Positions 7,079-17,846 of a DNA stretch of 64,000 bases are shown one piece after another; the stretch's first letter is position 1; every line of letters starts with the position of its first letter. Source of the DNA: Runella sp. SP2 (lineage in GTDB: Bacteria; Bacteroidota; Bacteroidia; Cytophagales; Spirosomataceae). A model generated the notes under the pieces. It saw nothing but the letters and a program-made list of their open reading frames with translations, did not search any database and was not told the origin of the DNA. A program made the position numbers and the translations under genes. The stretch covers positions 1,178,001-1,242,000 of the forward strand of contig NZ_CP031030.1 of NCBI RefSeq assembly GCF_003711225.1, given 5' to 3'.

Positions 7079-9511
7079 TCAATCCAATGATTTTATATCC
7101 TGTTGCACCACCTCCAAAAACTGCCGAAACTGCCCATACTGAGGGGCATCTCTGACCAACTCACTCCAAAGTTTTTCTGCTTCTTGAAAATAAGCTTTGG
7201 CTTCTTTATTATCTTTTTTGGCCTTGTTAGTTTCCGCCAATTTCGCATACGAAATGGCCAAGCCGTTTTTGAAATTCACATTTTGCGGATAGAATTCGTG
7301 CAGTTCTTCAAACAACTTTGACATTTCTTCAAAAAAAGTCAATGCCTTAGGCAAATTGCCCAAAGCTGTGTGTGTCGAGCCAAGTTTGGAGTATGAAACG
7401 GCCAAGCCGTTTTTAAAATCCACATTTTGCGGATAGGATTCGTGCAGTTTTTTTATTGTCTGATTTGCTTTTTCATCAAAAGTCAAAGCCTTCGGCAAAT
7501 TGCCCAAAGCCCCGTGTGTATCGCCGAGTCTTGCATACGAAATGGCTAAGCTGTTTTTGAAAGACACATTCTGCGGATAGGCGGAATAGAGTTCTTTTGA
7601 TAATTCAATGTCTTTTTCAAAAAAAGACAAAGCCTTGTCCAAATTGCCCAAGCTACTGAGCGTTTCGCCGAGTTTTTCATACGAAATCGCTAAGCCGTTT
7701 TTGAAAGCAATATGCTGGGGATAAGAGGCGTAGAGTTCTTCAAATATTTTTATTTCATCCTCAAAGTACCGCAACGCGATATCCAAATTACCCAAGCTGC
7801 TATGCGTCTCTCCGAGTTTAGAGTACGAAATCGCCAAGCCATTTTTGAAAGACACTTGCTGGGGATAGGCGGAGTAGAGTTCTTTTGCCATACTGGAAGC
7901 ATCTTCAAAAAATCCCAACGCCTTGTCCAAATTGCCCAAGCTGCTGTACATCTCGCCGAATTTTGCATACGAAATTGCCAAGCCGTTTTTGAAATGGGCA
8001 TTATGGGGGTCAGCAGCACACAACGCAGTTTGAATATCAACCATTTTTTGGTAAGATTGCAACATCATGTACAAATTGCCTGTGTCTTTGTGATAATCGC
8101 CGATATTTTGGCATAAAGTAGCTACATCGTCATCAAAAGGCAAGGTATAAATCACCAGAGCGCCTAATCGGGCAAATACAGCAGCCTGTTGGTAGTTGTC
8201 GGTGTGGCGGTTGTCATTGTCCAGTCCTGTTATTAAGGTATTGACTAAAGTTCGGCAGTCATTGAGCAAACGTTCGGCATTTTTACTGCGTGTCACTTCT
8301 TGAATAACAGGGCTGATTTTAAAGGTATTGTCAGTTTTTCGGTATTCAAGCCAACCTTTTTCCTCCAGACTGCTGAGGGGAGTTTCTAAAGCTTCTTCAT
8401 TAGCATTGAGCAAGGCAGCGAGCAGGGTGTAGGCAATATTTTCGGCAGGTAGCACCGCAAAATTGCTCAGTATGTAACACTCCGCGTCGTTCAACGAGGA
8501 TAAATCGTACATGGCAGCGATGATGTCTTTGGGCTCGGCTTCGCGCAGAATGTTGCTGCCATAGACTACCGCTACCGTTTTGTTTTTGAGTGCCAGCAAA
8601 CCCTTTGCCTGTAAATCGTGCAACAAATCCGCCAATGTATATCGTACCGAAAAACGATTGAACACTGCCATATTTTTAGCCAACACTTCCGTCACCAGCG
8701 TATTGTAGCCCACTGCTTTCAAAAGGTCGTGCAGCATTGGCAGGTCGGTATCGGGCAGTGCTGGATAGTAATATTTGAACAACGTCACGGCTTCTGTTTC
8801 AGTCAAAGGCAAGACTTTGTGCACTTTCATATTCGCAACTTGACTCACCCGCGAAGCCAGCAGGATATGGCAGTTGGGGAATTGGTGGAGCGTGGTGTAA
8901 TATTTTTTCAAATCAGTAGCGTTATTGGCATTGTCGAATACCAACAAGCAGGGTGTGTCCAAATTATTGATTGCCTCCGTAATACGGCGAATTTGCGCAT
9001 CAAAATCATCATTTTTCTCAAAATCTACGCCCAAAGCGTTTTTCAGCGTCACCAAAGCCGCCCCAATACCCACATCGGCATAGAGCCAAGCTAAGTGTTT
9101 GTAGCGGTCTGCGTGGGCATACCAATACTTTGCCGCCAACGTGGTTTTGCCAATACCGCCTTCGCCATTCACCAAAACAAGCAGGCGGTTATGGTCTTGG
9201 TATTGGGCTTCAATAGTTTTTAAGTCGTTTTCTCTGCCGATGAATAGGTAGGTGTTGAAGGGTGGGTTGGTGAGCAGGCGGGGGATTTTATTGGTAATTG
9301 CACCAAAGTTTGCCTCGTTAATGTTTTCAATATTATAAATTTTATCAGCCGACTGAATATGTTGAATTTGAAGGCTTTGCATCAATTTTTTTATTTCAGC
9401 CAAATCCTTTTTGACCTCCATCAGTTCACCATTGATGTTGATGGTCAAAGTACTATCTGTTACCGATTGAATGACAATGTTTTGATCGCCTTGAATATGG
9501 CTGGTATTCAT
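7079..9511 (-). CDS. STAND (NB-ARC-like) NTPase with C-terminal TPR repeats
   Basis: 810 aa. Residues 6-29 hold the short motif NIVIQSVTDSTLTININ, followed by a helical stretch and ADKIYNI (55-61). The NTPase module has Walker A GEGGIGKTT (116-124) and Walker B LLVFDN (189-194), with an NB-ARC-like ASRVSQ sensor region. Six 48-residue repeats built on FKNGLAISY and SSLGNLDKAL form a TPR superhelix at the C-terminus. This is the architecture of bacterial NLR-like sensors: N-terminal signalling motif, NTPase switch, C-terminal sensor repeats. It is transcribed away from the patatin gene (57 bp between starts), and its N-terminal motif recurs in the caspase and in the protein at 14938-16260. The trigger is unknown. 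Cytoplasmic. Confidence 0.88.
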   Translation of the reverse strand: MNTSHIQGDQNIVIQSVTDSTLTININGELMEVKKDLAEIKKLMQSLQIQHIQSADKIYNIENINEANFGAITNKIPRLLTNPPFNTYLFIGRENDLKTIEAQYQDHNRLLVLVNGEGGIGKTTLAAKYWYAHADRYKHLAWLYADVGIGAALVTLKNALGVDFEKNDDFDAQIRRITEAINNLDTPCLLVFDNANNATDLKKYYTTLHQFPNCHILLASRVSQVANMKVHKVLPLTETEAVTLFKYYYPALPDTDLPMLHDLLKAVGYNTLVTEVLAKNMAVFNRFSVRYTLADLLHDLQAKGLLALKNKTVAVVYGSNILREAEPKDIIAAMYDLSSLNDAECYILSNFAVLPAENIAYTLLAALLNANEEALETPLSSLEEKGWLEYRKTDNTFKISPVIQEVTRSKNAERLLNDCRTLVNTLITGLDNDNRHTDNYQQAAVFARLGALVIYTLPFDDDVATLCQNIGDYHKDTGNLYMMLQSYQKMVDIQTALCAADPHNAHFKNGLAISYAKFGEMYSSLGNLDKALGFFEDASSMAKELYSAYPQQVSFKNGLAISYSKLGETHSSLGNLDIALRYFEDEIKIFEELYASYPQHIAFKNGLAISYEKLGETLSSLGNLDKALSFFEKDIELSKELYSAYPQNVSFKNSLAISYARLGDTHGALGNLPKALTFDEKANQTIKKLHESYPQNVDFKNGLAVSYSKLGSTHTALGNLPKALTFFEEMSKLFEELHEFYPQNVNFKNGLAISYAKLAETNKAKKDNKEAKAYFQEAEKLWSELVRDAPQYGQFRQFLEVVQQDIKSLD
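7130..7993 (-). repeat. Six 144-bp tandem TPR-coding repeats
   Basis: The sequence AAGCCGTTTTTGAAA or a near variant recurs at 7260, 7404, 7548, 7692, 7836 and 7980, exactly 144 bp apart. Each unit encodes 48 residues. Units are similar but clearly diverged, most strongly in the residues between the conserved FKNGLAISY blocks. Confidence 0.85.
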
Positions 9512-9534
9512 ACTTAAAGTTTCAATTTTGTTGC

Positions 9535-9542
9535 TATCTTTG
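9535..9542 (+). promoter_or_regulatory. Putative -7 box (TATCTTTG) of the patatin-caspase transcript
   Basis: TATCTTTG matches the Bacteroidota -7 consensus TAnnTTTG and lies 26 bp before the patatin ATG. No clear -33 TTTG is seen at the usual distance. The whole divergent intergenic region is only 57 bp, so promoters for both directions must overlap or reach into the genes. Confidence 0.4.
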
Positions 9543-9568
9543 ACTTCAGTGACTAAAAAACCAATAGG

Positions 9569-10624
9569 ATGAAATCTAAACTCAAAATCTTGTCTATTGA
9601 CGGTGGAGGGATAAGAGGCGTTATCCCCTGCACCATTTTAAAGTTTATAGAGAGCCAATTAGGTGGTAACCTCTGCGAAACCTTCGATTTGATAGCGGGT
9701 ACCTCTACTGGCGGTATTATTACGCTTGGTTTAACTACTCAAAAACCAAACGATAGTTACCCATACTATGCCGAAGAAATGCTCGACCTCTACAAAAGTA
9801 ATGGAAATCAGATTTTTGCAAAAAGAGGTAAGGACGTTTTGTCGGTGTTGGGGGCTATTTTTCAAGGACTTCCTGAGGAAATGACAGCCAACCCCTACGA
9901 TAGCGAAAACTTAGAAAAACTACTCGACAAGTATTTTAAGAATGCTACACTTAGTGAGACTAAGACCAATGCACTGATAACGACCTATGACATAACCGAA
10001 GGAAAACCCTTTATTTTTTCAACTCGATTGGCTAAGAACCACGACACCGAACAAACCAAAGAGAATTTTTTGATTCGTGATATAGCTCGTTCCACTTCGG
10101 CGGCACCAACTTATTTTAAGCCTAACCTACTCACGGGCAAAGGCACCGAGGATTTTGCCTTTGTGGATGGTGGCGTTTTTGCCAATAATCCAGCGATTTT
10201 GGCCTACGCCGAAGCCAAAGAATTATGGAAAACAAGGAGTACCTTAGCATTTGATGCCGTAGTGACAGCTACCGACGACGACCTGCCATTTTATATGCTC
10301 TCTATCGGAACAGGCACGCACCGACAACGGTTTTCGGGGCAAGATGCGCAAAAGTGGCGGACTGCCAAATGGCTACAGCCGCTCTTGACGAGTGTGTTTA
10401 TGCAGAGTGTGGCCGAAAGTACGCATTATGCCATGCAACATTTGCTTCCTGATTGGACTGACGGAACACCCAGGTACCAGCGCATAAACATCGAAATACC
10501 CGAAGAAAACACTGCCATGGACGATGCCTCATCCGACAATATTGATACATTGTGCGAGATTGCCGAAAAATATGTAAAAGATAATGAGGCGCAGCTTTTG
10601 AAAATTTGTGAGTTACTACGATAA
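9569..10624 (+). CDS. Patatin-like phospholipase
   Basis: 351 aa. It has all patatin hallmarks: oxyanion loop DGGGIRG (11-17), nucleophile elbow GTSTG with Ser46, and the catalytic Asp200 in DGG. Family members hydrolyse membrane phospholipids, and patatins serve as membrane-destroying effectors in several bacterial immune systems (for example CapV of CBASS). No cyclase gene is nearby, so CBASS is not supported. It is 11 bp upstream of the caspase gene and divergent from the STAND NTPase, which suggests a second effector of the same island. It lacks the shared NIVIQ motif. No signal peptide. Confidence 0.92.
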   Translation: MKSKLKILSIDGGGIRGVIPCTILKFIESQLGGNLCETFDLIAGTSTGGIITLGLTTQKPNDSYPYYAEEMLDLYKSNGNQIFAKRGKDVLSVLGAIFQGLPEEMTANPYDSENLEKLLDKYFKNATLSETKTNALITTYDITEGKPFIFSTRLAKNHDTEQTKENFLIRDIARSTSAAPTYFKPNLLTGKGTEDFAFVDGGVFANNPAILAYAEAKELWKTRSTLAFDAVVTATDDDLPFYMLSIGTGTHRQRFSGQDAQKWRTAKWLQPLLTSVFMQSVAESTHYAMQHLLPDWTDGTPRYQRINIEIPEENTAMDDASSDNIDTLCEIAEKYVKDNEAQLLKICELLR

Positions 10625-10635
10625 TCCATTGAAAG

Positions 10636-11580
10636 ATGAAAAATCATGCACTCCTCATAGGTGTAGGCCAACGCCAAGATGATACCCCCGCTATGGCGGT
10701 GACCGCCGCCGATGCCAAACGAGTAGCCTGCGAACTGTTTAAAAGAGATATTGTTCCGTATGACAATATCCTTACTTTGACAGATAGTAATGCTACAAAA
10801 GTGAAGATTTTGGAGGGTATTGATAGTTTGGTGACCAAGACAAAAACTGACAAAGCCGATCTTGTTTGGGTTTATTTTTCGGGGCATGGGTACAAACAAA
10901 CAAGTCCAGAGGGTACTGATAAACATTTTTTGATTGCCCATGATACCCTTGCTGCCGATGTAGAAAACACGGCCTTGCTGGGAGCTGATTTTATTGATCG
11001 CATTAACAAAATAAAAGCCGAGAAAATACTGTTGCTCTTGGATTGCTGCCATGCAGGCGGTATCTCAAAAAGCAGAAAAAGTAGAATCCCTTTTGACGAA
11101 AAAGCGTTTTTGTCTCATGCCAACCGAGTTGTTATTTCTTCTTCTCATGCTAATAAAGAATCTTTTACCAGCAAACCGCTGAGTGTATTTACTTATGTAT
11201 TAATTAATGGACTAGCAGGAGCCTATTTTGAAGAAAATGACAAAGATGTTACAGTTTTTGATTTGGCTATGTACCTTAGAGAGACTGTTTATCCATTAAC
11301 AAAAAGGCATCAAAGACCTCAACTGAATGTTTTTGAGAACACAGGTACCAAGAACTTTATACTTTGTACCTACCCTAACGGAAAACCACAAAACCCCGTG
11401 TTTGATAGTGCATTTAGACTAACCGATAGCAGTGGCAAAAGCATAGAGTTGGTACCAAAAGAGACTGACAAGGCTTACCGAAAAAAATACAAATGGTTTT
11501 CATCCATCAAAGGAAATGAAAATATTGTAATGCAGGGCGCAAAAAAATCAACCATAATCATTAATATCAATAAAAAGTAA
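10636..11580 (+). CDS. Caspase-like protease (peptidase C14) with C-terminal signalling motif
   Basis: 314 aa. The caspase fold begins at ALLIGVGQ; the catalytic His84 lies in VYFSGHG and Cys138 in LLLLDCCHAGG. The domain ends around residue 245, followed by a polar linker and then, as the last 24 residues (291-314), a stretch containing NIVMQ and STIIININ. This aligns without gaps to residues 6-29 of the STAND protein (12 of 24 identical) and of the protein at 14938-16260 (11 of 24). Effector domain first and motif at the C-terminus is the complement of a receptor with the motif at its N-terminus. The likely role is a suicide or regulatory protease recruited by the STAND sensor. It is transcribed with the patatin gene. 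Confidence 0.9.
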   Translation: MKNHALLIGVGQRQDDTPAMAVTAADAKRVACELFKRDIVPYDNILTLTDSNATKVKILEGIDSLVTKTKTDKADLVWVYFSGHGYKQTSPEGTDKHFLIAHDTLAADVENTALLGADFIDRINKIKAEKILLLLDCCHAGGISKSRKSRIPFDEKAFLSHANRVVISSSHANKESFTSKPLSVFTYVLINGLAGAYFEENDKDVTVFDLAMYLRETVYPLTKRHQRPQLNVFENTGTKNFILCTYPNGKPQNPVFDSAFRLTDSSGKSIELVPKETDKAYRKKYKWFSSIKGNENIVMQGAKKSTIIININKK

Positions 11581-11605
11581 GGCCACCAAATCTAGTTTGG
11601 GGCTA

Positions 11606-13243
11606 TCAAAAAGTGATTTCACAGTTAGGCAATAGCTTTTTTATTTTTTCTTGTTCTGGTTTAGAAAAGTTGTTCTGATTTTTATCCCCAAGATTGCCTA
11701 AATCTAATTTTTTCAAATTTTTAAGCGAAAAGATGACATCGGGTAGAATTGTTAAACCCAAGTTATTTAGACTCAATTCTTCTATATTGGTCATGGTTTT
11801 TAACCTTGGGTTGATGTCAGCTACGGAGAGAGGGTTTCTACCAATGCTTAAATTTTTTATGTTTTTTAAATGCTCTAAACCTTCTAATTTCTGGATTTGA
11901 TTACTTGAAATATTGAAATTTTGTAAAGACTTTAAACTATCTAAGCCTTCTAATTTACAGACATAATTACCTAAAATACCGAAAGCTTGTAAAGACTTTA
12001 AATTGTCTAAGCCTTCTAATTTTTGGATTTGATTTAATGAAATATTGAAAGTTTGTAAAGACTTTAAATTGTCTAAGCCTTCTAATTTCTGGATTTGATT
12101 TAATGAAATATTGAAAGTTTGTAAAGACTTTAAACTGTCTAAACCTTCTAATTTTTGGATTTGATTTAATGAAATATTGAAAGTTTGTAAAGACTTTAAA
12201 TTGTCTAAGCCTTCTAATTTCTGGATTTGATTTAATGAAATATTGAAAGTTTGTAAAGACTTTAAACTGTCTAAACCTTCTAATTTCTGGATTTGATTAC
12301 TTGAAATATCGAAAGTTTGTAAAGACTTTAAATTATCTAAACCTCCCAATGCTATTATCCTATTCAATTCACAGTTAAAATAAACCAAATTTAATAAACT
12401 ATCTAAGTTTTCCAATTGTTCAATTTTGTTTTGGGATAGGTTCAAATACAGCAAATTTACCAAAAACTTTATACCTTCGGGTATCTGCTTTAATTGATTA
12501 CCATTTAGCAATAAGACTTTTAGTTGCGAATGTTGAAATACTAGCGGGTCGATTTCTTCAACGTTTCTATCACTTAAGTCTAACGCAGTTATTCCTGATT
12601 CTAACTGTAACTTAAGTATGTCAGTTGCTAATTTATATTCAGTTCCATTTGTATCAATCAAATAATAATTGCCGAATCTTTTGACTTTTGCAAGTCCCAT
12701 TTGATTAAAAGGCAAAGCTTCCTCATATTTAAAATCAATCTTAATGTTTAAATATTTATCAATAAAACCGTATTTTTTTTTATCTCCATCATAAGCTAAA
12801 CCAAATTTGCCTTTGTAAAAATAGATTTTATCTAAAACGTCTTGGGCTTTTTGTCGTGCGCTGTTGACTTCATTTAGGGCGGTTTCGGTTTCTGTTTTGG
12901 CATTTTCTGTTTCGGTAGCTCGTCGTTGTGCTACTACTTTAGCACTATCAGCCTCTTTTCTAGCTCGAATAGCCGTATTTTTATCTTTTTCTGCCCTTAT
13001 TTTTAAAGCATTGATTGCATCAAAAGCTTTTACAATTTTGCTACGTGCTTCATCTGCCTTTGCAGGGCAGTGTATCATGGCATTAGAAAATGCCTCAATG
13101 ACTGTTTTAAAATCGGCTTTATCACCTTTTTTTAGTTCTGCTTCGCCTCTTTCGATATAGGTTTTATAAAAAGGACAATCCGCTTGCGCTCGTAACACAA
13201 AAGGTAACAAGAGAAAATAGCCATATAAAAATATACTTTTCAT
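11606..13243 (-). CDS. Exported leucine-rich-repeat protein with coiled coil and WG-like segment
   Basis: 545 aa. N-terminal signal peptide (hydrophobic FLYGYFLLLPFVL, then AQA). Residues ~60-145 form a charged coiled coil rich in Ala/Glu/Lys. Residues ~150-205 resemble WG repeats (KYGFIDKYLNIKIDFKYEEA). From ~210 to the end there are about 14 leucine-rich repeats; the central ones are 22 residues long (internalin/SDS22 type) and almost identical. It is the last gene of a three-gene operon, 18 bp after the nSTAND1-like gene. An envelope location is inferred from the signal peptide; a ligand-sensing role is inferred from the LRRs and context. Confidence 0.85.
   Translation of the reverse strand: MKSIFLYGYFLLLPFVLRAQADCPFYKTYIERGEAELKKGDKADFKTVIEAFSNAMIHCPAKADEARSKIVKAFDAINALKIRAEKDKNTAIRARKEADSAKVVAQRRATETENAKTETETALNEVNSARQKAQDVLDKIYFYKGKFGLAYDGDKKKYGFIDKYLNIKIDFKYEEALPFNQMGLAKVKRFGNYYLIDTNGTEYKLATDILKLQLESGITALDLSDRNVEEIDPLVFQHSQLKVLLLNGNQLKQIPEGIKFLVNLLYLNLSQNKIEQLENLDSLLNLVYFNCELNRIIALGGLDNLKSLQTFDISSNQIQKLEGLDSLKSLQTFNISLNQIQKLEGLDNLKSLQTFNISLNQIQKLEGLDSLKSLQTFNISLNQIQKLEGLDNLKSLQTFNISLNQIQKLEGLDNLKSLQAFGILGNYVCKLEGLDSLKSLQNFNISSNQIQKLEGLEHLKNIKNLSIGRNPLSVADINPRLKTMTNIEELSLNNLGLTILPDVIFSLKNLKKLDLGNLGDKNQNNFSKPEQEKIKKLLPNCEITF
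11875..12336 (-). repeat. Seven 66-bp near-identical LRR-coding repeats
   Basis: CTAAGCCTTCTAAT or CTAAACCTTCTAAT recurs at 11875, 11941, 12007, 12073, 12139, 12205 and 12271, exactly 66 bp apart (a diverged unit begins at 12337). Five central units differ by only a few bases, indicating recent expansion. This is coding repetition, not CRISPR. Confidence 0.92.
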
Positions 13244-13261
13244 TGTCTATTGGTTGTTATT

Positions 13262-14935
13262 TTAAAGGTTGTTGAATTGTTCTTGAAAGGTTTGTTGTTG
13301 TTTTTGCAAACTATCCCGTTTCTGCATTTCGTAGTTCAACAAATCATTTCCTGCACTATTGCCTTTAAAAATACTGAGGTTGTTTTCTGCATTTTTGATT
13401 TCATTGTCTAAGCGTTGTATATCAGATTGTAACGATTTTTTTAAAGCTTTGATAGCTTCCTTTTTTTGTTCTTCGGCTTTTTTGTATTGACACCAAGCCA
13501 AAACCAAAAACACAACTGCCACAACCGCCACAGTTCCCGCAATATAACTCCGTAGTTTAGCAATTCGCTGTTGTTTTTCGGCATTTTGCCGCAGTGCTAT
13601 TTCCCGCTCGGCGGTAGCTTGTGCATGGGCTAATTCTTTGGCTTTTTCATTGGCAATATGGTTTTCGCTGTCCTTTATCCGCTCTTCTAAATCCGCAGGA
13701 TAGGCTCGATACGCTTGATAAGGACGTATATAATCCAAGTCATCTTGGGAGAAATACCCTCTTTTTTCTTGATATACTTTATAAATATCGTTGGCTTTCT
13801 CACGCAAACGCATTTCCTCGGTCAGATTTTTGCCAACAAGCGAAGCCAAAATGTCGTGGCTGATTTCGTAATGGGGACGCTCATTGGATTTGAGGGTACG
13901 CACAATACGCCGTTGTTCCAATTCGAGTAGTAGTTGTAGAAGATTGAACTCAGATATAGTAACCGACTTGGTTTGTAAGTCAGTGTAAATATCTTCGGGC
14001 GTAACTTGTAGCTTCGTATGGCGTTCAGAAATCATAGCCGCTAAGACCTCTAACGGTACTCTTTTGCCGTAGCTGCTATCCAAATGGGCTAGTTCTTTTT
14101 GCAAAAAACTGTCCAATACCCCTTCAAGGCTGTCATTTTCTTGGATCAAGCCCGCATGTAGTATAGGTATAGCGGCCTGTGGCTTACTGTTAAACGCTCT
14201 ATTCCATAATTCGCTTAGAAATACTTGAACATGGGCTAATTCTATTTCTTTTTGCTTATCGGGTAGCTTGGCCAACATTTTTTGCGCCAATGCTTGACTG
14301 TCTTCTACTATAAAGAAGGGTTGATATTCTGGTGCCTCTAAAATGGACTCTATAATCGCTTGGACATGAGCACCATTTATTTTTTCGAGTCGAAAGCGCT
14401 GCTGAAAAATGGTCGGAAACAGTGATTCAAATTCATGGAGATGTCCGATAAACTCTTCTCGCATGATAAAAAGAATTCGGCAAGGTATTTTAAAGCGCAC
14501 CAATTGATAGAGACGACTGAAAAACCCTTTTTTCTCGTCTATGCTGCCACTAATCAACAGTTCTTCAAATTGGTCAAAAAGCAAATAGACGGGTTGGTGC
14601 TTTTCATAAAACAATTGCTCAACCGCCTCAGAAAATGCACTTGTTTCAGACAAAGGCATTTTTTCTTTCAGTACCGTATTAATAGCCGCAAAAAACGAAT
14701 CGTTGATATTGTCTCCTTTTCGTATGGTCAAAGCATACCAATCGGCATCAGAAAATTGATTGCGTAAACCACATTCTACCAAACTGGTTTTGCCTGCACC
14801 CGAAGGACCATAAATTAATAAGTGCTTCACGCCACTCAAAGCGTTGTAAAGATTTTCCGTTTCTTTATCTCTCCCAAAGAAAACGTTGAAATCTTCTTTT
14901 TTGTAAGCATCTAAAAATTTGAATGGCGCATTCAT
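13262..14935 (-). CDS. nSTAND1-like ATPase with C-terminal membrane helix and coiled coil
   Basis: 557 aa. N-terminal ATPase: FFGRDKETENLY, Walker A GPSGAGKT (43-50), Walker B VYLLFDQFEE (116-125), typical of the novel STAND (nSTAND1) group often tied to caspases and WD40 or TPR sensors. A winged-helix-like segment (YEISHDILASLV) follows. Residues ~464-483 form one membrane helix (AGTVAVVAVVFLVLAW), then a ~74-residue coiled coil. The canonical sensor repeats are absent; the exported LRR protein encoded next may supply that role. Positive charges flank both sides of the helix, so topology is uncertain. The start is 2 bp after the stop of the upstream gene. Confidence 0.86.
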   Translation of the reverse strand: MNAPFKFLDAYKKEDFNVFFGRDKETENLYNALSGVKHLLIYGPSGAGKTSLVECGLRNQFSDADWYALTIRKGDNINDSFFAAINTVLKEKMPLSETSAFSEAVEQLFYEKHQPVYLLFDQFEELLISGSIDEKKGFFSRLYQLVRFKIPCRILFIMREEFIGHLHEFESLFPTIFQQRFRLEKINGAHVQAIIESILEAPEYQPFFIVEDSQALAQKMLAKLPDKQKEIELAHVQVFLSELWNRAFNSKPQAAIPILHAGLIQENDSLEGVLDSFLQKELAHLDSSYGKRVPLEVLAAMISERHTKLQVTPEDIYTDLQTKSVTISEFNLLQLLLELEQRRIVRTLKSNERPHYEISHDILASLVGKNLTEEMRLREKANDIYKVYQEKRGYFSQDDLDYIRPYQAYRAYPADLEERIKDSENHIANEKAKELAHAQATAEREIALRQNAEKQQRIAKLRSYIAGTVAVVAVVFLVLAWCQYKKAEEQKKEAIKALKKSLQSDIQRLDNEIKNAENNLSIFKGNSAGNDLLNYEMQKRDSLQKQQQTFQEQFNNL

Positions 14936-14937
14936 CC

Positions 14938-16260
14938 CTAAATTAGTGGTTTAAGTAGCAATTCTAAATGTTCGAAGAGTTCATTCCATTTAGGCTGATT
15001 CAGGTTTTCTTTCTTGACAAGGAAACTTTTGTTAGAAGCTATCGTTTTTGGCTCGCCCACAGGCAACTCATTTTTGTATTGTGCAAAATGATAACTTCTG
15101 CCGCTCATTCCGCAAAAATTGAATATTTCAGGCGTTTGTGTCATTTTCGCCGAAAAAACGCTTTGGTCTATGATAAGAGGTGATAAGGAAATATAGTTTT
15201 TGTTGTTATACAGTGTATTGAGACTTGCATCGATATTCGTTCCTTTGAATAACAAAACACTGTGATTGTAGGTGAAAAAATCTTTCACAGAAAATGTCGT
15301 GTAATCTTCTCCGTCCACAGCAGCCCCCTCATAGACACCGTGTAATTCGCCATAATAATGGATAAATTCTTTTGCAGTAGCTCCCAAACGATATTGAATA
15401 TTGATTTCCTTCATAGAAACCAAGCGGTATCGGGCAATAAAAACCAGTTTTCGCAACCAAAATATCAAGGCAGTTCTATACTCTTCTAAGAGTTGTTGGA
15501 GGGAGTTATTTTCTTGTAATTGGTTGTTAATCAATTGTCTGCGTATTTTATCCAAATATAAGGCCACGCCGTATAAATCGTTTTCCGTATCCTGCAACTC
15601 GGTCACAAAATCCGTTATTTCTGTCACAAAGTTGTTAGCTCCTAATGCTTCTGCCCCTAAGAGTAATAATTGTTGATAGTCAAATAAGGCTTGATTTTCA
15701 GGCGGCGTTTTGATGAAATCTGAAAAAATTGGGTTTGTTATGTTAACTGCCTCTTTTTGCTGTAATAGCTGGGCTAATTGAATCATACATAGGTAGTAAA
15801 TAGAGGCTTGATAGGCTTCGGTCATAAACGACAAAGCACGTAATGTGGAGGCTTTGCCAACTTCTGTGCTCATTTTTTGCAAAAAAACTTCTATCAGCCA
15901 ACCATAATGCTCAAAAGTGCGGTTGTTGCGCACAGCTATCTTTTGACTAATCAATTCTTGTTTTAAGCTCAATCCCCAGCCCGACTCCGTCAAAAGATGC
16001 TCTTTCAACTCATTGGGTAAGCCTTGAAAGTTGGTTTGTTTGAGGATAAAGTCAAAATTAGCGTTATTAATCGTGCCAATATTGTAGATTTTATCAGCCG
16101 TTTGAAAATTCTTCTCTGAGAGATTTTTTAACAAATCTAAAAACACATCTAATTTTCGAGCAATCTCTTGAATTTCTCCGCTTACGTTAAGTGTAATCGT
16201 ACTATCCGTTACATTCTGAATGACGATGTTATGATTTCCTTCAATAGTACTGCTGTTCAT
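14938..16260 (-). CDS. Unknown protein with N-terminal NIVIQ signalling motif
   Basis: 440 aa, first gene of the three-gene operon. Residues 6-29 (containing NIVIQNVTDSTITLNV) and ADKIYNI (55-61) match the STAND protein at the same residue numbers over about 70 residues without gaps. The rest is mainly helical to ~300 (leucine- and glutamine-rich), then mixed, with no Walker motifs, protease residues, membrane helix or signal peptide that I can recognise. It may be a regulator or adaptor that pairs with the caspase or STAND protein through the motif, or an uncharacterised effector. I do not recognise the main domain. Confidence 0.78.
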   Translation of the reverse strand: MNSSTIEGNHNIVIQNVTDSTITLNVSGEIQEIARKLDVFLDLLKNLSEKNFQTADKIYNIGTINNANFDFILKQTNFQGLPNELKEHLLTESGWGLSLKQELISQKIAVRNNRTFEHYGWLIEVFLQKMSTEVGKASTLRALSFMTEAYQASIYYLCMIQLAQLLQQKEAVNITNPIFSDFIKTPPENQALFDYQQLLLLGAEALGANNFVTEITDFVTELQDTENDLYGVALYLDKIRRQLINNQLQENNSLQQLLEEYRTALIFWLRKLVFIARYRLVSMKEINIQYRLGATAKEFIHYYGELHGVYEGAAVDGEDYTTFSVKDFFTYNHSVLLFKGTNIDASLNTLYNNKNYISLSPLIIDQSVFSAKMTQTPEIFNFCGMSGRSYHFAQYKNELPVGEPKTIASNKSFLVKKENLNQPKWNELFEHLELLLKPLI

Positions 16261-16673: not shown

Positions 16674-17846
16674 ATGGTTTTGCTAGACGAACAACGCCAA
16701 TTTATTCGGGAACACCTGTCTGCGTCGGTGGCGACACTGTTGCTCAAATACGGTAAAAATCGAGAATTTGAAATCCGCCAAATTGAAGCCCGCCAAAAAG
16801 CCAAACAAAAACTGCCCTCGTGGTATGCCGAAGAACGACTCATTTTTCCGCCTGCGGTTTCGGTAGAACAAAGCTCTTCGGAAACAACGGGTCGTTACAA
16901 AGCGGCGTTGGTGTCGGGTACGCTGATGGACGCAACGGGCGGCATGGGGATTGATGTTTCTTTTTTTGCTAAAAACTGTACGTCAGTGCTTTATGTAGAA
17001 CAAAAGCCCGAATTGGTGGAACGGGCAAGGTATAATTTAGACGTACTAGGACTTCAAAACGTGCAGTACTTGCAAGGAAATTCGCTGGAAGTTTTGCCAA
17101 CCCTCGATACCGTTTTTGATTGGATTTATCTCGACCCTGCGCGTCGTTCGGCCGATAACCGCCGCGTGGTGGGGCTGCGCGATTGCGAACCCGACGTGGT
17201 GACGTACCTGCCGCTTCTTTTGCAAAAAGCCAAGCGATTGCTCATCAAAGCTTCGCCGCTGCTCGATCTCAAACAAACTTTATTGGACTTGCCCCAACTG
17301 TCGGTCATTCACGTCGTTTCGGTAGAAAATGAGTGCAAAGAACTGCTTTTTGAACTAGCGTCGGACGCCCAACCCACAGCCAGCCCGATCGTACGGACGA
17401 TTAATTTTAAGTCGGACGACATAGTGCAAACGTTTGATTTTGAGTGGAATAGTGAGCAGAGTTTAGCCGTAACGCTGAGCGACCCGCAGACCTACCTTTA
17501 CGAGCCCAATGCCTCGATACTGAAAGCAGGAGCGTTTAAGTCGGTGGCCAAGGCGTATGGCGTGGAAAAAATAGCGCCTCACAGCCATCTTTATACGTCA
17601 GCGACATTGGTTGAGCATTTTCCTGGGCGAATTTTTCGGGTGGAGGCCGTTGTAAAAGTGGATTCTAAGGCGTTGGCACCGTACCTTACCGATGGAAAAG
17701 CCAACCTGACGGTGCGTAATTTTCCGCTTTCCACCGACGAATTACGTAAAAAGCTTAAACTCAAAGAAGGCGGCCATACGTACATTTTTGCCACGACCCT
17801 GGCCAATGGAGATAAACGACTTTTGGTGTGTAAAAAGCCAATTTAA
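16674..17846 (+). CDS. Class I SAM-dependent methyltransferase with THUMP-like domain
   Basis: 390 aa. After an N-terminal helical region, the SAM-binding motif DATGGMGIDV lies near residue 85, followed by YVEQKPELVERARYNL (motif II) and the motif IV form WIYLDPARR, all typical of Rossmann methyltransferases. The C-terminal part fits the PG_1098-type ferredoxin-like/THUMP-like domains common in Bacteroidota. The family is presumed to methylate RNA, but the target is not known. The catalytic DPAR form resembles N-methyltransferases of nucleic acids. Confidence 0.85.
   Translation: MVLLDEQRQFIREHLSASVATLLLKYGKNREFEIRQIEARQKAKQKLPSWYAEERLIFPPAVSVEQSSSETTGRYKAALVSGTLMDATGGMGIDVSFFAKNCTSVLYVEQKPELVERARYNLDVLGLQNVQYLQGNSLEVLPTLDTVFDWIYLDPARRSADNRRVVGLRDCEPDVVTYLPLLLQKAKRLLIKASPLLDLKQTLLDLPQLSVIHVVSVENECKELLFELASDAQPTASPIVRTINFKSDDIVQTFDFEWNSEQSLAVTLSDPQTYLYEPNASILKAGAFKSVAKAYGVEKIAPHSHLYTSATLVEHFPGRIFRVEAVVKVDSKALAPYLTDGKANLTVRNFPLSTDELRKKLKLKEGGHTYIFATTLANGDKRLLVCKKPI

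Follow-up and report, generated by a model that had tools for sequence, protein, structure and literature searches.

The window analysed here, a stretch of 64,000 nucleotides from Runella sp. SP2, contains an island (positions 7079-16260) in which three proteins share a short motif. These proteins are P0001 (7079-9511, minus strand), an NB-ARC (STAND) NTPase of 810 amino acids with TPR repeats; P0002 (10636-11580, plus strand), a caspase (C14) peptidase; and P0003 (14938-16260, minus strand), which consists of the motif, a helix, a second shared element and a region of approximately 360 amino acids without a family match. Judged from sequence, the island is probably a Bacteroidota conflict locus (immunity or cell suicide) wired by this short homotypic motif. 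We propose P0001 as sensor A, P0002 as the effector, and P0003 as the adaptor of sensor B (P0005-P0006).

P0001 matched Pfam NB-ARC (1.5e-9; 37.9 bits, cut-off 23.5) and TPR_12 (3e-27), which together identify a STAND NTPase with superstructure repeats; its Walker A motif is at residue 116. P0002 matched Peptidase_C14 (7.3e-14; 52.4 bits, cut-off 21.4), and the catalytic residues of the His-Cys dyad, His84 and Cys137/138, were present. For P0003, no Pfam match exceeded the cut-off, NCBIfam, PADLOC and PHROGs gave no match at the limits used, and a PDB profile search found none.

P0004 (9569-10624, plus strand) is a patatin-like phospholipase (Pfam Patatin, 2.4e-28; PADLOC phospholipase effector, 1.6e-70) that keeps both Ser46 of GxSxG and Asp200 of DGG and carries no motif copy. 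It scored 204.9 bits against the NCBIfam model CBASS_lipase (CBASS cGAMP-activated phospholipase; cut-off 200); no CD-NTase turned up in the scan of six proteins from the island, and the search for one did not extend to the remainder of the genome. The P0003 operon continues with P0005 (13262-14935, minus strand), an nSTAND1 NTPase without the motif (Pfam nSTAND1, 6.7e-33) and with one hydrophobic segment by eye, and P0006 (11606-13243, minus strand), a leucine-rich repeat (LRR) protein (Pfam LRR_4, 9.6e-33) with a hydrophobic N-terminus by eye; the gaps in this operon are 2 and 18 bp. The operon is convergent to the P0004-P0002 pair, whose genes are 11 bp apart, and this pair is divergent from P0001 at a distance of 57 bp.

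The shared motif in the three proteins

The motif is a 24-residue ungapped block found at residues 6-29 of P0001 (IQGDQNIVIQSVTDSTLTININGE; 9425-9496, minus strand), residues 6-29 of P0003 (IEGNHNIVIQNVTDSTITLNVSGE; 16174-16245, minus strand) and residues 291-314 of P0002 (IKGNENIVMQGAKKSTIIININKK; 11506-11577, plus strand), the last being the extreme C-terminus of the caspase. The initial annotation had aligned these segments without gaps and placed the motif N-terminally in the NTPase and C-terminally in the effector, and the translations confirmed both statements, with identities by eye of 16/24 (P0001/P0003), 12/24 (P0001/P0002) and 11/24 (P0003/P0002). Two-sequence BLASTP gave E-values of 6e-19, 9e-5 and 1e-4 for the window pairs. 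When the caspase tail and the receptor N-termini were compared after shuffling, 0/400 shuffles attained the observed ungapped score in each of the two pairs.

A three-row profile searched against the 7.6-Mb genome returned six matches at E <= 10. The three window copies had E-values of 1.4e-17 (P0001), 2.0e-16 (P0003) and 5.3e-17 (P0002), all at or below 2e-16, and the remaining three lay at 1.05 to 2.05, i.e. nothing besides the window copies fell below E = 1. A profile of 20 rows lacking the three window rows, run on the 272 open reading frames (ORFs) of the window with a genome-scaled Z, recovered P0003 (1.3e-9), P0001 (8e-6) and the caspase (1.3e-5), the next ORF being at 98. With two P0003 homologs also removed, the values were 6.4e-7, 3.2e-4 and 8.7e-6, respectively. 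Because the rows had been gathered with window-derived profiles, this is a consistency test rather than an independent one. Chance or low complexity as the origin of the motif was rejected on the strength of the own-genome search, the shuffles and the window-free profile.

The consensus reads [IV]-x-G-[DN]-x-N-x3-Q-[DGN]-[IV]-x2-S-T-I-x-[IVL]. Within its G-x-x-N-x-x-x-Q core, Gly, Asn and Gln were invariant in 23 aligned copies, and the Ser was nearly invariant. In five P0003-type proteins, 11/20 positions of the motif and 5/26 of the following linker were invariant. A PDB profile search with the motif gave two weak matches (best E 0.31), nothing usable.

Recurrence of the motif in other Bacteroidota

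Profile surveys were run on overlapping genome samples, the own genome being counted in each. Matches were found in 6 of 99 relatives at E <= 0.1, in 12 of 222 genomes of the family at E <= 0.05 and, at E <= 1e-3, in 5 of 395 genomes of the phylum, 7 of 390 of the order and 3 of 395 of the class. Beyond the own genome, the family, phylum, order and class surveys yielded 24 loci at E <= 1e-3, rows above this value being excluded from the count; Pfam was run on the proteins of ten of them, and the others were read by eye.

At 13 of the 24 loci, the motif occurs in at least two adjacent genes (L022, L024, L050, L051, L053, L054, L056, L062, L064, L065, L085, L091 and L092), and 11 of these 13 place it at the N-terminus of the sensor and the C-terminus of the partner. 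The receptor/effector arrangement put forward in the initial annotation is thus well supported by recurrence. The remaining 11 loci comprise two fusions (L087 and L093), one protein in which the motif stands beside CHAT (L090), and eight loci where the motif is alone or its pairing doubtful (L052, L055, L063, L084, L086, L088, L089 and L094). A degenerate partner copy is possible at L055 (2/200 shuffles), and the shared segments of L063 and L088 were not clearly above chance (10/200 and 25/200 shuffles).

Cognate copies were more alike than re-paired ones (mean score 45.4 vs 41.6, p 0.031, 11 chosen pairs; p 0.029 and 0.038 with 10 and 9 pairs), which lends modest support to a connector role. 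This test excluded L051 and L054, which are near copies of used loci, as well as L055, L065 and the second partner of L092.

By our own reading, 21 of the 24 loci hold a STAND/NACHT, TPR, CHAT, TIR-like, EAD or ParA-like component. The motif was also considered as a broad surface feature, and no surface or housekeeping carrier was recognised among the 24 loci at E <= 1e-3; the spread through secreted or structural proteins that the initial annotation had named as a refutation was not seen in the four surveys at this limit, by our reading of the loci. Weaker matches included a phage tape-measure-like protein (L023, E 0.013, 222-genome survey) and a UvrB-like frame (L025 in G072, E 0.015, survey of 99 relatives). 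Two of the eight rows between 0.004 and 0.05 in the 222-genome survey were inspected, namely a true partner in G202 (L050) and the tape-measure-like L023.

Sensors, partners and fusions

On the sensor side, the motif was carried by NB-ARC-TPR proteins (L022 and L024 by Pfam; L051, L053, L054 and L063 by eye), TPR proteins (L056, L064, L065 and L085, by eye), a NACHT protein (L084), a protein with nSTAND matches below the cut-offs (L094), P0003 homologs (L050, L052, L087 and L092) and proteins adjoining a ParA-like ATPase (L088, L089 and L091, by eye).

The partners included a TIR-like protein (L022; TIR_2 28.0 bits, cut-off 28, with sub-threshold DUF4062 and NPHP3), a CHAT protein (L091), an EAD11 protein (L092), and proteins in which a hydrophobic segment was recognised by eye (L050, L062, L064 and L065). 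The partners of L064 and L065 bear two motif copies, as does HET-s. In addition, one type of small protein of 120 to 161 amino acids was found, of which eight were aligned, seven of them in paired loci. We take these small partners to be putatively Bell-like. A PDB profile search with them gave 14 weak matches (best E 0.04), nothing usable; of two searched against plasmids, one gave a weak match (E 0.5) that led to a Haliscomenobacter locus (L107) and the other gave none.

Fusions were found in L087, where a single protein joins CHAT, the motif and the P0003 region, and in L093, where one unites EAD11, the motif, NB-ARC and TPR. Weaker motif copies were present in a pair from Bernardetia sp. 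Wsw4-3y2 (WP_338815454.1 and WP_338815453.1; 1/200 shuffles).

Several arrangements were recorded in passing. At L087 (7480-10359), the nSTAND1-like and LRR parts form a single 959-amino-acid protein (by eye, with LRR-type NCBIfam matches), the counterparts in the window being the separate P0005 and P0006. At L086 (1-1737), the motif of a small Bell-like protein is followed by a second tail segment (LNIGNISSGRDTN) that is matched in the next gene (0/200 shuffles); segments similar to this tail occur in the two genes after that one, perhaps as another shared motif. In both L055 and L062, a protein that has a hydrophobic segment and the motif, or a degenerate form of it, is paired with one composed of the motif and a similar region of approximately 160 amino acids; for the L062 protein with this region, no NCBIfam match was found.

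The second shared element

The N-termini of P0001 and P0003 are alike over approximately 70 residues (51% identity over 73 residues), a likeness that the initial annotation did not mention, nor did it mention the patatin gene ahead of the caspase gene. Within this block lies a second shared element, at residues 53-72 of both P0001 (QSADKIYNIENINEANFGAI; 9296-9355, minus strand) and P0003 (QTADKIYNIGTINNANFDFI; 16045-16104, minus strand). It follows the pattern A-D-K-I-Y-N-I-x2-I-N-x-A-N-F and is identical at 14/20 positions between the two proteins, the preceding helix being identical at 4/23. In the 222 family genomes, good matches were limited to P0001, P0003 and two P0003 homologs; the other seven matches listed had E >= 0.02. 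The 73-residue block gave no match in plasmids.

The element was found C-terminally twice. At L084, it ends a 94-amino-acid protein immediately upstream of the NACHT protein, and the two proteins share no segment above chance (111/200 shuffles). On the Haliscomenobacter hydrossis plasmid pHALHY02 (L107), the motif and then the element form the end of the EAD11 protein WP_013769095.1. Because only these two C-terminal cases are available, the element as a separate connector is a lead and not a result. A similarity to RHIM spacing was considered as well.

Caspase relatives and their tails

The best-ranked relative of the caspase on plasmids was found in Nostoc sp. UHCC 0926 (plasmid pn3; L137, 4983-5912; 34% identity). 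Its C-terminus resembles EAD10 over the back half only (22.3 bits, cut-off 24.1), and this tail resembles the N-terminal EAD10 of three neighbours, two of which have NB-ARC or NACHT; the second half of EAD10 may itself be a short beta-type connector. In a second plasmid caspase, from Nostoc edaphicum (pNe_1; L138, 1972-4048), the last 45 residues or so resemble the N-terminus of the next protein, an iSTAND protein, and this is a third shared tail, perhaps a helical one. The tail scores ranged from 57 to 80 as raw values and come from two of the 131 plasmid records. Together, these sequences suggest that one caspase family is attached to sensors by differing shared tails.

Variability of the island within the genus

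The gene flanking the island downstream (16674-17846) had a match in 13/13 genus genomes, the own genome included, and the upstream gene of 235 amino acids had one in 2/13. Three genomes (G001, G004 and G008) keep both flanks at approximately 85-97% nucleotide identity, the island being replaced by about 2 kb of different DNA. The locus therefore varies between members of the genus, which is what one would expect of a defence locus. G008 retains two short stretches, one of 86 bp (87%) and one of 87 bp (94%), resembling the middle of the STAND gene, codons ~398-426 and 459-488. These relic-like stretches (L127, 4067-4241) suggest that the island was once present there and was lost.

Homologs of P0003 were confirmed by a pattern scan at two loci of the genome collection, in Flectobacillus sp. 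BAB-3569 and a Cytophagales metagenome-assembled genome; the scan missed or did not cover the more distant homologs L087 and L092. Searches with P0003 in plasmids and phages gave no match.

Comparison with known systems

The closest known arrangement is that of the bacterial amyloid signalling motifs (BASS). The available descriptions distinguish ten families and draw mainly on filamentous Actinobacteria and Cyanobacteria, with Archaea as well (PMC7889193, PMC9815663). An NLR carries a short motif N-terminally and the effector of the neighbouring gene carries it C-terminally, this effector being usually Bell and less often CHAT or TIR (PMC7889193). Bacterial amyloid signalling motifs are described as about 20 to 40 residues long (PMC8086366), and BASS are treated further in PMC12261475, with related work in PMC8195603 and PMC12881547. 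The window motif likewise occupies an NLR N-terminus and an effector C-terminus in close genes, and its 24 residues fall in the BASS range. The primary BASS paper is reportedly that of Dyrka et al. 2020. Among relatives of the window system, the partners include CHAT and TIR-like proteins and the eight small proteins that we take to be Bell-like; the window partner is a C14 caspase. The window system differs in lying in Bacteroidota and, as far as the published descriptions available go, in its C14 caspase partner, its co-encoded patatin, its two sensor types per effector and its second element. No publication on this motif or on Bacteroidota amyloid signalling motifs was found among the literature matches listed, and the window motif profile did not match the BASS-type pair of Streptomyces sp. 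NBC_00464. That pair (L130, 1584-5089, on a plasmid) consists of a small Bell-like protein and an overlapping NLR-type TPR gene that share a different 30-residue segment, and it looks BASS-type.

In fungi, the HET-S/NWD2 amyloid signalosomes of NLRs similarly place one motif at the receptor N-terminus and the effector C-terminus of neighbouring genes. The partners here are instead a bacterial caspase and TIR-like, CHAT, EAD11, small Bell-like and membrane proteins, and the likeness considered is one of arrangement.

EADs of multicellular prokaryotes are described as the same domain in a sensor and, in the next gene, fused to an effector (PMC7159879). The motif stands beside EAD11 in L092, L093 and Haliscomenobacter hydrossis, but it is only about 24 residues long, and Pfam EAD models gave no match in the three window proteins among the families listed (for P0001, the best 25 of 39). 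Finally, in the Canu caspase-nuclease system, a bacterial caspase is described as activating an enzyme co-encoded in the defence locus (PMC12799240). The island likewise pairs its caspase gene with a gene for another enzyme, in this case a patatin phospholipase, whose activation by cleavage is only a guess.

Proposed mechanism and alternative explanations

We propose the following course of events. On sensing an invader, the STAND-TPR protein P0001 would oligomerise and gather its N-terminal motifs, which could then nucleate a cross-beta (amyloid-like) assembly. This assembly would recruit the caspase P0002 through its C-terminal motif copy, and the clustered caspases would be activated by proximity, leading to cell death or arrest. 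Killing might proceed partly through caspase action on the co-encoded patatin P0004. Since no other island gene has an effector-side copy, P0003 and the two proteins encoded behind it, nSTAND1 and LRR, may provide a second input to the same caspase. The sequence evidence makes it very likely that the motif is a homotypic connection between receptor and effector; that the connection is amyloid in nature fits the anatomy and leans towards likely.

A number of observations weigh against this interpretation. By profile, 11/24 loci lack the motif in two adjacent genes; L052 has a P0003 homolog and no partner was seen; both copies of L062 are N-terminal; and the partner copy of L091 lies at 240-264 of 343, not C-terminally. 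Several partner copies are weak (L056 0.19, L065 0.06 to 0.1, L091 and L092 ~0.002; that of L064 had E 7e-4), and the sensor frame of L065 is broken by a stop. A seven-row profile built from effector-side copies only was weak on the window copies (caspase 0.35, P0003 5.9, P0001 79). In the five P0003-type proteins, invariance of the second element (5/20) was not higher than in the rest of the proteins (108/368). A search of the 222 family genomes found no close caspase relative, its two matches being at around 30% identity. The link of P0003 to this particular caspase would follow from motif similarity only. The cross-beta assembly is proposed from the anatomy of the motif. A propensity check gave two hot segments per motif, which are not specific, and an AlphaFold model of P0003 (from three sequences) was unusable, with a predicted local distance difference test (pLDDT) value of 31.3.

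The motif could also be a homotypic connector that is not amyloid, a beta-arch or beta-hairpin that packs into a finite ordered oligomer, much as death folds and EADs form such oligomers from folds of other kinds; receptor oligomers would then recruit the caspase by ordinary stoichiometric binding. The genomic evidence for such a connector is the same as for an amyloid one. Moreover, the motif lies next to a domain-type connector, EAD11, in L092 and L093, the EAD10-like segment (below its cut-off) occupies the same place in a Nostoc caspase, and the profile finds one copy per receptor. In our judgement, however, the shortness of the motif, its invariant Gly, Asn and Gln, its nearly invariant Ser and the two copies on the partners of L064 and L065 are closer to amyloid motifs, and we consider a finite oligomer unlikely.

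It is very improbable that the likeness of P0001 and P0003 reflects an N-terminal duplication only, with the caspase tail being convergent or a leftover of an earlier fusion without a signalling role. The two receptors do resemble each other more than the caspase resembles either, but their two conserved stretches lie on either side of a diverged helix, the motif recurs at partner C-termini elsewhere, and none of 400 shuffles reached the score of the caspase against either receptor. Least credible, to the point of being negligible, is the idea that the motif arose by low-complexity coincidence or serves as some generic feature of surface or secreted proteins: the composition is rich in Asn, Gln and Ser, and the tape-measure-like and UvrB-like matches show that unrelated proteins can match weakly, but at E <= 1e-3 no surface or housekeeping carrier was recognised, and 21 of the 24 loci hold one of the components listed above. 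The amyloid-type connector has a broadest form, namely a new Bacteroidota family of amyloid-like motifs in which two unrelated sensor modules, NB-ARC-TPR and P0003/nSTAND1/LRR, would converge on one caspase, the second motif of each could recruit further partners, and bacterial caspases in general would use interchangeable homotypic tails. Taken as a whole, this combination is put forward tentatively, at slightly less than an even chance.

Significance

New here is that two differing sensor types share the motif of one caspase. Also new are the second shared element carried by both sensors, the CBASS-type patatin co-encoded with the caspase, and the variability of the island within the genus. 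The system is compact, and whether the motif alone sets the wiring can be asked with a few short segments. The comparison of the two Nostoc caspases suggests a general rule, the same enzyme with an interchangeable shared tail, which could help to predict sensor-effector pairs.

If the proposed reading is true, amyloid-type signalling between immune sensors and executioners would extend to Bacteroidota, with a caspase-family protease as one of its outputs, and this would form a bacterial parallel to the higher-order assemblies that switch on animal caspases. The shared tag that pairs sensors with likely killer proteins suggests a plug-and-socket switch for cell suicide.

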